From Aliiroseovarius sediminilitoris (GTDB lineage Bacteria > Pseudomonadota > Alphaproteobacteria > Rhodobacterales > Rhodobacteraceae): a stretch of DNA of 64,000 bases. The notes beneath the pieces are model-generated. The model was given only the letters and a program-made list of their open reading frames with translations, ran no database searches and was not told the DNA's origin. Positions 4,544-9,707 of the stretch are shown piece after piece. The position numbers were made by a program, and so were the translations under genes. How positions within the stretch are numbered: the stretch's first letter is position 1; every line of letters begins with the position of its first letter. The stretch is taken from positions 2,852,001-2,916,000 of the forward strand of contig NZ_FOJB01000001.1 in NCBI RefSeq assembly GCF_900109955.1, given 5' to 3'.

Positions 4544-5965
4544 ATGAAAGGAACAAGATCGCATCGACTGGCATGGTCTATTGTATCGGTTCTGTTCATT
4601 GCGGGCGGGCTGTTCGTATCCTTGGCAATCTATGCGTCAAAACTGATCTGGCCGAACCCACAGAATTTCGCGCAAGAATTTGCTTCCGACAAATTAATCG
4701 CGGACCACTTGTCTGCTGCCGAACGGCCCAGTCCTATGTCGACCCCAAACAATCCGCCGCTTTCTTCCCATATCCCGGATTTGGTTGCCGCGCTCGACAT
4801 GCTTGAGATGCCAAATTCCGGTGGCGATCCGCATCCAGCCATTACTTCTCAAGTTTCAGATACGCCGTTGCGCGCACCGACCGCATTGATTGACCCGCAC
4901 AGTTTTGGGCCGCCCCTGATGCCAGGCAATGACACAGCCGATTTACTCCCTGTCCTCATCGCGCAGGCAACACCGTCTGAGGTGGGGGAACACGCCGAAG
5001 ATGATGAGGCGGTATCGGTCTTCTCCATGGGGACACCGGTTGCAGACATCCCCGCCGACCCCTCGGACGATCCGTTCGCAGATTTGACTGCGTCAGTGGC
5101 CAGTGAATCCGTTCCAGCCATGGATGATGCCGAATATCAACTGGACATGCGGATTGCCGCCTTGGCCCAGCCGATTGACACGCCGATCCCACCTCCGCTT
5201 CCGGTTGAGGTATTTGCCTTGGCCAGCAACGCGCCCGAACCTTTGCCCGAGATTGTATTTGTCATGTCTGAACCTGACATTTGGCCACAAAGGGTCGACC
5301 AAGCTGCGGTGCAGTCCGTGTCGCAATCGCTGAGCACGCCGGACCTTGCCTCTGTCCCTGCGCCCTCACCCGCTGCGATTGTCCGCCAACAGTCACCGCA
5401 AAAATCGCCAACGCCAATGATCGCCCCGACGATACAGTTGGCCGCGGTTTCAGACGATCTGCACCTTCCGCCACCTTCGGCTGTTTCGCTTGAAAACGAC
5501 GATGATCTGGTCCTTCAGATCGCAAAGGTTCTGGCCGCGGCGCCTCTTCCTTTGCCCGGCGCAGAGGACAGCGTTCGACCACTTTATGCACCAACCGCTT
5601 CCCCGCGCCCGCAGCAAAGACAGCGCATCGACCCGACGCCGCCACGTGCCGCAGATCAGATCGCCGAACCGTCACCCCCGTCAACCGTGCCGACAGTTGC
5701 CGTGGTCACGCCCGCATCAGCGCCCGTGACCGCGCCGACAAGGTCGGATGACGGGCGCGACCGGATGTCGGTTGTCGGAATATACGACACGGACACAGCC
5801 CCATGGGCGCTTCTGGAAACGAGTGACGGGCGCATTATCAAGGCCACCAAAGGCACCAGCTTTTACGGCATGCGGGTGGCCCGCATTCGCGGCAACAAGA
5901 TCTGGATACGCGACGGCGGTATGGAAAAGGGTTTAACGACAGGTCAGGTTATCGTGCTGGACTAG
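4544..5965 (+). CDS. Membrane-anchored, proline/alanine-rich protein with a small C-terminal periplasmic domain
   Basis: 473 residues: a basic N-terminus, one membrane span at about 10-33 (RLAWSIVSVLFIAGGLFVSL), a long acidic Pro/Ala-rich linker to about residue 400, and a compact C-terminal domain (about 405-473) including SVVGIYDTDTAPWALLETSDG, RIIKATKGTSFYGM and GQVIVLD. That last part resembles the short beta-rich periplasmic domain of PilP/GspC-type secretion proteins, in which a single-pass anchor and a flexible linker precede such a domain. The match is by pattern only; no pilus or type II secretion genes are near, so function is unassigned. Transcription is toward, but convergent with, the glycosylation operon. 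Confidence 0.7.
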   Translation: MKGTRSHRLAWSIVSVLFIAGGLFVSLAIYASKLIWPNPQNFAQEFASDKLIADHLSAAERPSPMSTPNNPPLSSHIPDLVAALDMLEMPNSGGDPHPAITSQVSDTPLRAPTALIDPHSFGPPLMPGNDTADLLPVLIAQATPSEVGEHAEDDEAVSVFSMGTPVADIPADPSDDPFADLTASVASESVPAMDDAEYQLDMRIAALAQPIDTPIPPPLPVEVFALASNAPEPLPEIVFVMSEPDIWPQRVDQAAVQSVSQSLSTPDLASVPAPSPAAIVRQQSPQKSPTPMIAPTIQLAAVSDDLHLPPPSAVSLENDDDLVLQIAKVLAAAPLPLPGAEDSVRPLYAPTASPRPQQRQRIDPTPPRAADQIAEPSPPSTVPTVAVVTPASAPVTAPTRSDDGRDRMSVVGIYDTDTAPWALLETSDGRIIKATKGTSFYGMRVARIRGNKIWIRDGGMEKGLTTGQVIVLD

Positions 5966-5981
5966 TGGGTCACATGCCACA

Positions 5982-7829
5982 CTACTCTTCGTTGCGCCGG
6001 TAAAAGTCAAACCGCTCGGCCTTGTAAACCAGCGTGTAGTTCTTCATTTCTTCTACAAATCGCGGATCGGCTTTCATGAAGGTCATCCAGGTAAACGGGT
6101 TCACCATAAAAATCGTGACGGCCCGATCTGAGACGATCAGATCAGGTTTGTGGTCGAGGATATCATTCAGGTTGTCTGTTCGATTACGCTCCACAATCGC
6201 TTGCAGATCTGCACAAAGCTCTGCTTCCTTTGCGCAATCGGTGTTCGCAAGCTTGTTAGTCGCACCGGGATACAGCCAATTGGCAGGATAGCGGCTGACC
6301 CAATCAATCCCCAGGCGCAGTGCGACGGGCGCACCGATATCCAATTGCATGGAACCGGCCATCATGCTGTCGATTGGCCCAAATTTCTGAGCAATATAGA
6401 GCACTTCGTCAGTTGTCTTGTTACGATACCTTCCACGCTCATACAGCCCGGCCATCAACAGCGCGCTGGCCAGGGATGTCAGGACGACGCCCAACGACAA
6501 GGTTCGTGCATTGATCAACCACCATGCACCCGCCAGCAATGAATATATGATGAATGGGACCAGTTGATATCCAAAGCCAGTGCTTTGCACGACGTAGCTG
6601 AACAAGGCCGCAGCCGCCGCCAAGGCAAATGTCGTGTCGCCGACATCCTGCCGTTTCGTGAAAACAAGCGGCATCATGATGATCAGACCCAGTATCTTCG
6701 GCGGTAACGAAATGACCAAGACACCCCAGAAGGTGTTCTTGTATGCCGCATAGACCTGTCCCGCCATCGGAACGATATCATCCAGGTATTCAGGATGCCA
6801 AGCGACGACAAGTGCCACATAGATCACGCCAATCGCGAGCATCAACAGATTGCGGAGATACAGAATGGGTGCAAACGATCGCGTGCGCCACATATCTCGA
6901 ATCAGAAAAGCAATTGGAAAGACCAGAAAAAATGGCTTTATGCAGATCCCAATCGCGCCGAAAGCGCTGCTGGCCAATGACGGACCTTTCTCTGGGCGAA
7001 CCAGATACCACATCAACCACGGGGACAGAAACAGCACCAATAGATGTTCGCGCTGCGCGATATTATTTGCTGCGCCTAAAACAAAGACCAATGCCATGAA
7101 CGCGAAGAACACGGTGCGGCGCAGAGCGCTTATATCAGCAGCACCGCGCAGAATGGCGCCGGACCACAACAAGCTGACGCCATACAGCAGTGCCACAAAG
7201 AAGTATTGACCGTTGGCGTCGCTGATCTTCAGGAAATCGGCGATCAGAATGGCCGGAATGGTCAGATAGAAGTTCAGGGGCGGGTTGACCTCGATCAGGT
7301 CGACGTAAAGCTGTGCACCACCGAGCATCTTGCGCGTCGCAACAAGGTACCACGCCGTATCGTGATTGGCCGGCCAGTTCCAATAGATGCCGATAAACAA
7401 GAACATTCCGCCAAGCGTGATAAAGACCATCTGCCAGGTCGGCAAAAATGGCGTACCACGATGCGAAAATACCCAAAATCTTAACGCCAGAAATGTGGCC
7501 AACGGTACCATCAGCGCGACCAACACCATCGCCAGATAGAAGCTGCCTTCTGTGAACGTGCTGATCAGCCAGACAATGAAACTGCTGGCCGCCAAACCGG
7601 TCAGCGATACAAAAATGAATCTTGGCAAATGCTGCTTATGGTTTGGTTCAGCGGCGAATGTGAAGTTTGAGTGGCCGAAATACGAGATCAGTACCGAAGC
7701 ACAAAACCCACTGAAATTGGACCACATTTCCGGCATGGAAAACAGTTTGTGGACGATGGTTGCCACGAGTACATGTGTGATCGTCGCCAATCCGCCGACG
7801 CCAATGAAACGAAGCAATTGGGCAAACAA
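5982..7829 (-). CDS. GtrA-like flippase domain fused to a GT-C-type membrane glycosyltransferase
   Basis: 615 residues in two parts. Residues 1 to about 130 form a GtrA domain: four hydrophobic spans beginning LLRFIGVGGLATITHVLVA and containing SYFGHSNFTF, the family's conserved aromatic/Asn patch; GtrA proteins move undecaprenyl-phosphate-sugar across the inner membrane. The rest is a polytopic domain whose first large loop carries NHDTAWYLVATRKMLGG and EVNPPLNFYL, the layout of PMT/ArnT-type GT-C transferases with an acidic catalytic residue, then about nine spans and a soluble tail. It is the third gene of an operon, three bases after the methyltransferase, with a GtrB-like enzyme first. 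The whole gene is visibly poorer in G+C than housekeeping genes nearby. The acceptor is unknown. Confidence 0.8.
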   Translation of the reverse strand: MFAQLLRFIGVGGLATITHVLVATIVHKLFSMPEMWSNFSGFCASVLISYFGHSNFTFAAEPNHKQHLPRFIFVSLTGLAASSFIVWLISTFTEGSFYLAMVLVALMVPLATFLALRFWVFSHRGTPFLPTWQMVFITLGGMFLFIGIYWNWPANHDTAWYLVATRKMLGGAQLYVDLIEVNPPLNFYLTIPAILIADFLKISDANGQYFFVALLYGVSLLWSGAILRGAADISALRRTVFFAFMALVFVLGAANNIAQREHLLVLFLSPWLMWYLVRPEKGPSLASSAFGAIGICIKPFFLVFPIAFLIRDMWRTRSFAPILYLRNLLMLAIGVIYVALVVAWHPEYLDDIVPMAGQVYAAYKNTFWGVLVISLPPKILGLIIMMPLVFTKRQDVGDTTFALAAAAALFSYVVQSTGFGYQLVPFIIYSLLAGAWWLINARTLSLGVVLTSLASALLMAGLYERGRYRNKTTDEVLYIAQKFGPIDSMMAGSMQLDIGAPVALRLGIDWVSRYPANWLYPGATNKLANTDCAKEAELCADLQAIVERNRTDNLNDILDHKPDLIVSDRAVTIFMVNPFTWMTFMKADPRFVEEMKNYTLVYKAERFDFYRRNEE

Positions 7830-7832
7830 GGG

Positions 7833-8561
7833 TCAGACCTTCTCAAGCACGGCGCCAAGCGACAGGCCAACCGGAAGAGGTATTCGCCCCAGCACAAACC
7901 GTTCTGCCCCGAATATCTGCCGCATCAACCTGTTCAGCCATCTGGGCGGCATACTATCGTCCGGCGCATCGCTTCCCGTGATCTTCTTGATAGCGCGTGC
8001 GGTGATGGCAAGCGGGAACAGCAATGTGTTGAAATAACTGCTATAGGTCACTTTCAAGCCCGCTTCTGCCGCGACCTTGGCCAGGCTGGTGCGGGTATAG
8101 CGACGATAATGGTGATGCGCTTCATCATGTTTGGACCACAGGAAGGGAAAGGCAGGTACGGTGACAAGCAGCTTGCCGCCGGGGCGCAGGTGGTGTGAAA
8201 GCGCGCGCAGCGATGCCACATCAGGCTCGACATGTTCCAGCACATCAAAAAGGCCGATCAGATCGTATTCCTGACCCTCGAACGGCACCTCATCCGGCAA
8301 TGCCCCAAAGACGAGACCGAGACCCGATTTCCTGATCGCATCCGCGCGGGCGGTGTCATCAAACTCGAATCCATCGACTTTGCCAAATTGCTGAAGCAAC
8401 GCCAAATTTCCGCCGCTTCCGCACCCGGCTTCCAGTATCCGAGCATCCGCCGGAAGATTGGTGCGACGGCGGATGAGCGTCTCGATCATATCCCGGCGTG
8501 CGACAAACCACCAATGATGCGCCTCCAACTCGTTCATACGCTCATAGACATCACGATCCAT
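7833..8561 (-). CDS. Class I SAM-dependent methyltransferase of the glycosylation operon
   Basis: 242 residues. ILEAGCGSGGNLALL is SAM motif I, FDVLEHVEPD follows as motif II/post-I, and LRPGGKLLVTVPAFPFLWS is the usual motif III region. The N-terminal ELEAHHWWFVARR is typical of methyltransferases found beside membrane glycosyltransferases. The ATG at 8561 is preceded by GAGGGGGAACAAG, far better than upstream alternatives, and gives an 11-base overlap with the preceding gene, implying translational coupling. It may methylate a lipid-linked sugar or the glycan product; that is inference from context. Confidence 0.85.
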   Translation of the reverse strand: MDRDVYERMNELEAHHWWFVARRDMIETLIRRRTNLPADARILEAGCGSGGNLALLQQFGKVDGFEFDDTARADAIRKSGLGLVFGALPDEVPFEGQEYDLIGLFDVLEHVEPDVASLRALSHHLRPGGKLLVTVPAFPFLWSKHDEAHHHYRRYTRTSLAKVAAEAGLKVTYSSYFNTLLFPLAITARAIKKITGSDAPDDSMPPRWLNRLMRQIFGAERFVLGRIPLPVGLSLGAVLEKV

Positions 8562-9570
8562 CTTGTTCCCCCTCGCCGGTGTCCAGCTGGATATATGAAC
8601 GCACAATATAGAGCGGGCGCTGGCGCACTTCCGTATAGATGCGACCGACATATTCCCCGATAATCCCCAGTGCGAACATGTTCATGCCGCCGAAGGTCAG
8701 GATCAGAATGGCGGTCGACGCATAGCCGGGCGTGTCGACCCCGAACAAAAGGGTCCGGAAGAACAGGAAAGCGGAATAGAGCAACGAGGCCACAGCCATC
8801 GACAGGCCAACATAGGTCCATATTCTAAGCGGCGTGGTGGACGAGGCAAAAATCCCGTCGAGCGCCAGTTTCCACAGCTTCCAGTATGACCATTGGCTGC
8901 CACCCTCGGCGCGAGCGGGTCGATCATATTCGATCTCGGCCGTTTCAAATCCGACCCAACTGAAGATGGCCTTGTTGAAGCGTGACCGCTCTCCCATCGC
9001 GCAGATCGCATCCACCACTTCACGGTCCAGAAGGCGGAAATCGCCAACACCGCTGGGAATGGGATGATCGGCCAGCGTGTTGAACAGGCGATAGAACAGG
9101 CCCGCGCTGGTGCGCTTGGCCCATGTATCTGCATCACGTCGCGCGCGACGGGCATTGACTACCTTGGCCCCTTGCTGCCAATGCGCGATCATCTGCACGA
9201 TCACCTCGGGCGGGTCTTGCAGGTCCACATCGATGGGGATCGCGACATCACCGCTTGCATGGTTCAGACCAGCAGACAAGGCGGCCTCTTTGCCGAAATT
9301 GCGCGACAAGTTCACCAGGGAAATCTCGGGCCACTCTTCTCGGCAGGTCATGATCGTCCGTTCGGTCGCGTCGCGGCTGCCATCATTGACAAACAGATAT
9401 TCAATATCGAACGCATTCCGCAGCGAAACCAGCGCATCGGCTGTGCGTTCCAGAAAGACACGAATGCTATTTTCTTCGTTGAAGACAGGAATGATCAACG
9501 AGATCAGGGGCCGACCCTTTTGAACCGGGCCGCTGTCATCCAGCAGCATGTCGCGGCTTGATCCTGCCAT
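8551..9570 (-). CDS. GtrB/DPM1-like polyprenyl-phosphate glycosyltransferase (GT2)
   Basis: 339 residues. The N-terminal GT-A domain shows IPVFNEENSIRVFLERT, FVNDGSRDATERT and IDVDLQDPPE (the DxD-like sugar-nucleotide site), then the amphipathic RTSAGLFYRLFNTLADHPIP and GVGDFRLLDREV typical of GtrB/dolichol-phosphate mannose synthase relatives. Two C-terminal membrane spans (about 235-257 and 270-295) anchor it. Members load a hexose from UDP- or GDP-sugar onto undecaprenyl phosphate on the cytosolic face. It is first in the operon with the methyltransferase and the GtrA/GT-C fusion, which together would make, flip and transfer the sugar. Confidence 0.9.
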   Translation of the reverse strand: MAGSSRDMLLDDSGPVQKGRPLISLIIPVFNEENSIRVFLERTADALVSLRNAFDIEYLFVNDGSRDATERTIMTCREEWPEISLVNLSRNFGKEAALSAGLNHASGDVAIPIDVDLQDPPEVIVQMIAHWQQGAKVVNARRARRDADTWAKRTSAGLFYRLFNTLADHPIPSGVGDFRLLDREVVDAICAMGERSRFNKAIFSWVGFETAEIEYDRPARAEGGSQWSYWKLWKLALDGIFASSTTPLRIWTYVGLSMAVASLLYSAFLFFRTLLFGVDTPGYASTAILILTFGGMNMFALGIIGEYVGRIYTEVRQRPLYIVRSYIQLDTGEGEQDGS

Positions 9571-9707
9571 ACAAATTACGCCTCAAATAACTGCCCGCCA
9601 CCGTGCGAGTGGCAGGCTTATTCTATTGGGGGCAGATTATGACAGCCCGGAGTCACGTGGCAAGCCGCACATCGGATTAAATGCAACTCTGCCCGCAAGC
9701 GCGGCGC

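Follow-up and report, generated by a model that had tools for sequence, protein, structure and literature searches.

A GtrA domain joined to a putative GT-C-type transferase in a gtrB-methyltransferase operon of Aliiroseovarius sediminilitoris

The gtrA-gtrB-gtr(type) cassettes of Shigella phages are responsible for O-antigen glucosylation, as outlined in parts of PMC7389260 and PMC11127046. Excerpts of PMC8035078 and PMC7389260 describe the same division of labour for the GtcA/CsbB/YfhO and GtlA/GtcA/GtlB systems, GtlB being listed with a PMT-2 domain (PMC8035078). We analysed a locus with these components in a 64,000-nt stretch of Aliiroseovarius sediminilitoris (the window, whose positions are used for all coordinates). 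As read from the open reading frames, three genes lie on the minus strand in the order gtrB, methyltransferase and a gtrA::GT-C fused gene. The usual Gtr trait of three separate polypeptides, which is not essential to the type, is absent here, GtrA and the GT-C part sharing one frame. The two domains (GT-C by profile only) form a fusion that is conserved, recurs elsewhere and is linked with GtrB and a methyltransferase. It is likely that the operon represents a Gtr-type, three-component system of periplasmic glycosylation with GtrA and GT-C in one chain, and the unit probably decorates the surface sugars of the bacterium.

The operon and the GtrA half of the fused protein

A preliminary description, made from the sequence, had proposed that a GtrA flippase and a GT-C-type transferase form a single polypeptide, with gtrB as a separate gene of the same operon and a methyltransferase gene between the two. 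This layout was borne out, the GtrA part by a Pfam match and the GT-C part by profile comparison (95-97%), not by structure. The features are as follows.

8551..9570, minus strand: gtrB, 339 aa; polyprenyl-phosphate glycosyltransferase of family GT2, for lipid-carrier loading (PF00535, 9e-27)
7833..8561, minus strand: class I S-adenosylmethionine (SAM)-dependent methyltransferase, 242 aa (PF13489, 8e-19; motif I EAGCGSG)
5982..7829, minus strand: gtrA::GT-C fused gene, 615 codons with a TTG start; full-length homologues elsewhere
7467..7811, minus strand: GtrA domain, residues 7-121 (PF04138, 5.7e-18)
5985..7454, minus strand: GT-C-like half, residues 126-615 (family profile against PMT_2 95-97%, low controls)
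7278..7361, minus strand: putative first loop on the periplasmic side, containing D157 and N182-P183-P184, which align with the DE...KPP region of PMT_2
5985..6392, minus strand: predicted C-terminal alpha/beta domain, residues about 480-615 (block pLDDT 34-79 in two poor AlphaFold models)

Assignment of the first gene (9570-8551) as gtrB was supported by several matches. Its product matched PF00535 (9e-27), the PHROG family annotated as "GtrB-like O-antigen conversion" (1.2e-105) and Synechocystis sll0501 in the PDB (5ekp and 5eke, 6e-98), and it bears the DxD motif DVDLQDPPE. It is the only strong GtrB of the genome, the next match having an expectation value (E) of 6.7e-10, and the fused protein is the sole GtrA match. 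Because the genome holds one GtrA match and one strong GtrB, the fused protein and the adjacent GtrB are likely partners.

The methyltransferase gene is closely packed between its neighbours, with its ATG at 8561 inside the 3' end of gtrB and its stop ending 3 nt ahead of the TTG of the fused gene. A longer frame of 272 aa from 8651 was also considered, but the start at 8561, giving 242 aa, is more likely. Both the PF13489 match (8e-19) and SAM motif I (EAGCGSG) are present, as in class I SAM methyltransferases, and there was a weak match to the D-glucose O-methyltransferase 6uv6 in the PDB (2.4e-4). Membrane segments were counted in a Novosphingobium relative of the enzyme, and none were found there.

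In the fused protein, PF04138 (GtrA) covers residues 7-121 at 5.7e-18 (65.7 bits against a curated cut-off of 26.1), and the domain was found in all 12 aligned fused proteins. Comparison with the PHROG GtrA counterpart gave 1.3e-4. Hydropathy analysis revealed three peaks in this half (4-32, 68-94 and 84-123), in the range of three to four transmembrane helices, and a low-confidence AlphaFold model contained four helices. Four helices ahead of the GT-C half would place its first loop outside the membrane, a placing weakly consistent with the distribution of charges over the GtrA loops. The predicted C-terminal alpha/beta domain, which scored better than the rest of the two AlphaFold models, is probably periplasmic.

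Upstream of gtrB, promoter-like hexamers were detected at 9636..9663 on the minus strand, a kind of site found at chance frequency (4 in the region against 3.1 expected). Between them and the gtrB start lies a 10-pair hairpin (window 9593-9617) with attenuator-like placing; terminator-like sites in the region occur near the chance rate (5 found against 4.1 expected). The convergent neighbour at window 4544-5965 codes for a 473-aa protein that is rich in proline and whose C-terminus weakly resembles PilP (E 0.043). It diverges fast, with 37-59% identity within the genus as against 94-96% for LeuB.

Profile evidence for a GT-C-like half

Residues 126-615 gave no credible match to any Pfam or NCBIfam model, the best signals among 12 fused and 8 C-half rows being single-member only, at E 0.0057 or weaker. 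PMT_2 (PF13231), the family of GT-C enzymes that includes ArnT, stayed below its Pfam cut-off, with no match at E <=1 in the window protein and none at E 0.5 in the 12 fused rows or the 8 C-half rows (the window half and seven others). By Pfam's own test, the GT-C half is not a PF13231 member. Because library matches are absent for these residues, the case for GT-C identity was made by profile-profile comparison. The family profile contained 64 rows, a few of them partial and with two proteins entered twice (L040/L141 and L041/L180; G and L numbers are our handles for genomes and loci). Comparison profiles were built from genomic proteins of PMT_2 (28 of 30 loci with a usable frame), Wzy_C (29 of 30) and MFS (22 of 24).

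Alignment of PMT_2 with the 64-row family by hhalign gave a probability of 96.6% (E 6.9e-10), and 95.1% with query and target swapped. Controls were low: 0.5% with Wzy_C, 1.0% with MFS, and 1.1% and 2.2% with reversed profiles. The 50 unfused rows reached 96.1% with PMT_2 and the 13 fused rows 86.0%; with Wzy_C, the fused rows gave 7.8% and the stand-alone rows 0.9%. The PMT_2 alignment spans 178-280 columns and includes the first-loop acid (Asp) and the PP motif, NPP standing in the family where PMT_2 has KPP. Conservation across the 64 rows was high for D157 (62), N182 (62), P184 (64), R260 (63) and K298 (64). These comparisons point to a GT-C-type protein in the C-terminal half, its fold assigned by profile, not by structure.

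Recurrence, neighbourhoods and origin of the fusion

A search for the same fusion elsewhere, suggested in the preliminary description, showed that it recurs. Nineteen fused loci were examined: 12 in the same genus (probably Aliiroseovarius), five in other genera of the family and two on plasmids, with L032 (Aliiroseovarius sp. Z3) and G014 counted once. A search of 195 genomes found the full-length fusion in the window's own genome, in 11 of 20 other genomes of the genus and in one outside it (G056). Full or nearly full-length matches were present in seven of 394 family genomes (the own genome, G016, G056, G680, G888, G1035 and G1078) and in two of 398 phylum genomes (the own genome and G680). 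Among 385 class genomes, a match across both halves was confined to the own genome, while the C-terminal family alone occurred at 41 places. The plasmid-borne fusions belong to Novosphingobium sp. MBES04 (616 aa, three-gene order kept) and Sinorhizobium chiapasense (639 aa). The fused gene of G002 (L050:6013-7869) is broken by an in-frame TAG some 500 codons in and is either a pseudogene or affected by a sequencing error.

The fused frame is kept in 12 aligned proteins with 33-79% identity to the window protein. Ratios of non-synonymous to synonymous substitution (dN/dS) for six pairs were 0.04-0.11 in the GtrA half and 0.09-0.17 in the GT-C half, with dS near saturation in several pairs; these values indicate purifying selection on both halves. 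Because the frame is retained at 33-79% identity with dN/dS of 0.04-0.17, it is not a product of chance.

A tree of 63 rows was built, with G680 added, two partial rows dropped, and G002, G888, G1035 and G1078 left out. The main fused proteins fell into a single 15-row clade (support 100/96), which includes the stand-alone protein of G030, while the Sinorhizobium fusion paired with the viral-contig GT-C protein L054 (100/98). In topology tests on 28 rows, a single group of all fused rows plus G030 was rejected (approximately unbiased (AU) p 0.001), whereas a group of the main fused rows without G030 stayed acceptable (p 0.126). Because of this tree and the rejected single grouping, GtrA fusion to a member of the GT-C family probably arose at least twice, the Sinorhizobium fusion looking independent.

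All of the fused loci examined (19 of 19) have gtrB upstream; the gene is truncated in Z3 and lies some 0.7 kb off in Sinorhizobium. The methyltransferase gene, placed correctly in the window operon by the preliminary description, did not prove a constant part of the system, being intact in 10 of the 19 loci, internally deleted in Z3 and absent from eight. In Z3 (L032:5281-5991), the fused gene is intact, but gtrB has lost its first third together with an internal part, and a large deletion has removed sequence from within the methyltransferase gene.

For the unfused family, 40 of the 41 places from the class search were taken with about 6 kb of flank; the 41st is L039, where both partners are present. 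Near these 40 stand-alone genes a methyltransferase resembling that of the window occurred in 19 loci, GtrB in 18, both in 16, gtrA in three (sought with the fused-protein profile, which could miss distant GtrA) and none of the three in 19. Of 20 control stretches chosen in the same genomes, three did not exist, and the other 17 contained none of these partners. In 14 of the 16 two-partner loci, the methyltransferase gene and gtrB lay back to back with the GT-C gene, the methyltransferase nearest. The contrast with the controls is qualitative, because several loci are close relatives or come from the same genome, several stretches end at contig ends, and the controls are unmatched for polysaccharide islands. 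The methyltransferase is thus optional in fused loci, yet recurrent beside stand-alone GT-C relatives.

Adjacent but separate gtrA and GT-C genes were found in G007, G012 and G033. In G007 and G012 (L033:7112-10602, L034:7353-10858) they form a second, unfused pair with gtrB nearby, besides a fused operon elsewhere. G235 has a four-gene row of gtrB, GT-C, methyltransferase and gtrA, and G355 a divergent version. On the Novosphingobium plasmid (L085:7891-10169), the fused operon is directly followed by a separate gtrA and a gene for a 605-aa protein lacking a Pfam match, perhaps another GtrA/transferase pair.

Other long GtrA frames among the matches listed were set aside. G131 and G379 encode GT2-GtrA fusions, with a different domain partner, and the G256 frame was guessed to be a separate gtrA extended upstream by chance. 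In G349 (L119:2697-5207), GtrA precedes some 460 residues of a different polytopic protein, which may make it another kind of GtrA fusion; this part scored 2% against the GT-C family, 9% against PMT_2 and 28% against Wzy_C, and matches neither of the first two. No GtrA-GT-C fusion appeared among the matches listed in a search of titles and abstract openings of the open-licence literature, which leaves out subscription papers.

Stand-alone GT-C relatives were also seen on two viral contigs (L053:5815-7347 and L054:5944-7272), perhaps as phage cargo, amid frames that by eye look like phage structural genes. Neither protein had a PHROG match. When viral contigs were searched with two individual relatives and with two degenerate motifs, no member turned up beyond these two contigs, and none of the loci L200, L201, L202, L293 and L294 encodes the GT-C family.

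Lower G+C had been offered as a hint of acquisition, an argument that fails on third codon positions (GC3). The fused gene has a G+C of 0.519, with the deficit in codon positions 1 and 2, as expected of a membrane protein, and its GC3 of 0.638 is within one standard deviation of that of 43 window frames of >=200 aa (0.679 +/- 0.046). Mobility is instead suggested by patchy presence, the two plasmid copies, and the integrase/resolvase-like neighbours of one copy. In that copy, G680 (L318:1270-4495), integrase-like and serine-resolvase-like frames were recognised by eye beside a complete three-gene operon.

In eight members of the genus, counting the window's own genome, the fused gene lies next to LeuB or the 473-aa gene. 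A GST gene lies on the other side in seven of the eight; in G012, no gene of that side was found within 7 kb. Neither flank was seen in G002, G003, G005 and G019, whose GST gene is located elsewhere. In an empty-site comparison, the GST marker was present in 11 of 13 genomes of the genus, and its surroundings were unlike those of the window in the six that were opened.

Proposed mechanism, alternatives and relation to known systems

For substrate, acceptor, topology, flipping and direct hand-over, we infer the following scheme. GtrB would load a sugar onto undecaprenyl phosphate at the cytoplasmic face, and the methyltransferase, where present, would methylate the sugar or its nucleotide precursor on the cytoplasmic side before export. 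The GtrA half of the fused protein would then bring the lipid-linked sugar to the periplasmic face, where the GT-C half, via D157 of the first periplasmic loop, would transfer it to a surface glycan. GtrA-type proteins are thought to be dimeric in action, according to parts of PMC8035078, and by analogy the fused protein may bring two transferases together in a dimer. We tentatively extend the scheme to a single-chain flip-and-transfer machine that evolved at least twice, in which sugar would pass directly from GtrA to GT-C and GtrA dimerisation would force a transferase dimer. Its transferase would come from a GT-C family that Pfam models missed in the scanned proteins and whose alphaproteobacterial members frequently occur with GtrB and a probable sugar methyltransferase.

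Several results weigh against the Gtr-type interpretation. Hydropathy alone gives three peaks, not four, in the GtrA half. R95 and N132, which are essential in Listeria GtcA (PMC7389260, in part), have no clear identical counterpart by spacing, GtcA being outside the alignment: there is no Arg at the R95 place, and T112 stands at that of N132. This poor match counts against equating the GtrA half with GtcA. The C half of the window protein reached only 10.8% with PMT_2 when used alone, compared with 86.0% for the fused rows, and a wider family profile was needed; the GT-C assignment therefore rests on the family. Three profiles built for the fused or GT-C family were searched against PDB sequences and returned nothing credible (best E 0.42). 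From four sequences submitted to AlphaFold (the window protein, L032, and the viral-contig loci L053 and L054), the two models of the fused protein had pLDDT of 45.0 and 46.3 and no confident fold. Foldseek with the second of these (pLDDT 46.3) yielded 173 matches to E 10, the best at 0.47 and none at <=0.001, and GT-C enzymes were absent among the best 50 of the 173.

It is quite possible that the fusion is a neutral joining of adjacent genes, both parts working as before, which fits the Gtr-type interpretation and speaks against direct hand-over. Adjacent unfused gtrA and GT-C genes do occur, and the stand-alone GT-C of G030 falls within the fused clade in the best tree, the non-nested tree being acceptable (p 0.126). 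An independent second fusion with the order of the parts unchanged (AU p 0.001), and retention of the fusion down to 33% identity, on the other hand mildly favour an advantage.

A second alternative, which we regard as unlikely, is that the GtrA half is a tether and not a flippase, docking the GT-C half to GtrB or other partners while the sugar is moved by another protein or by none. Fusion is what would be expected of a contact-making partner, and the essential GtcA residues are not clearly kept. Rv3789, a GtrA protein of mycobacteria, has been suggested to act as an anchor (PMC7389260, in part), and direct biochemical evidence of flipping by GtrA-type proteins is lacking according to parts of PMC7389260, PMC5836110 and PMC11127046. 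A tether does not seem generally needed, however, as gtrA is near only 3 of 40 GT-C relatives (with the profile limit given above), and the genome has no other GtrA match.

That the C-terminal half is instead an O-antigen polymerase or ligase, or a transporter, and not a GT-C monosaccharide transferase, is very improbable: the missing Pfam, NCBIfam and PDB sequence matches, the poor structure models and the 7.8% of the 13 fused rows with Wzy_C (above the 0.9% of stand-alone rows) leave room for it, but hhalign gave 86-97% with PMT_2 against <=7.8% with Wzy_C and <=1.0% with MFS, and the conserved first-loop Asp and NPP align with the DE and KPP region of PMT_2.

Whether GtrA proteins flip or anchor is left open in the available sections of PMC7389260, PMC5836110 and PMC11127046. 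A natural GtrA-GT-C chain fixes partner, stoichiometry and contact, making flipping and transfer assayable and mutable in one protein, and offers a direct way to probe the function of the flipping partner. A GT-C family without a model, tied to a carrier-loading enzyme and a methyltransferase, also provides a handle on methylated sugars that possibly reach bacterial surface glycans.

By its three components, the system belongs with the Gtr multi-component systems (PMC8035078, PMC11127046, as described in part). Like the Shigella phage cassettes it combines members of the GtrA and GtrB families with a GT-C transferase, but flippase and transferase are one protein here, a methyltransferase is part of the operon, Pfam gives no credible match for the GT-C half, and the setting is an alphaproteobacterial genome rather than a phage cassette. 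The GtcA/CsbB/YfhO and GtlA/GtcA/GtlB systems differ, in the portions describing them, in having separate proteins, teichoic acid acceptors and Gram-positive hosts. Similarity to PMT_2 (PF13231) enzymes centres on the first-loop acid and PP motif, but the GT-C half lies below Pfam detection in the rows scanned and has NPP for KPP. The GT2-GtrA fusions (L118, L120) likewise join GtrA to a glycan enzyme, there a GT2 of the carrier-loading type and here the final transferase. Fusion, methyltransferase and a GT-C half unrecognised by Pfam in the rows scanned thus set this locus apart from the Gtr systems with which its components place it.

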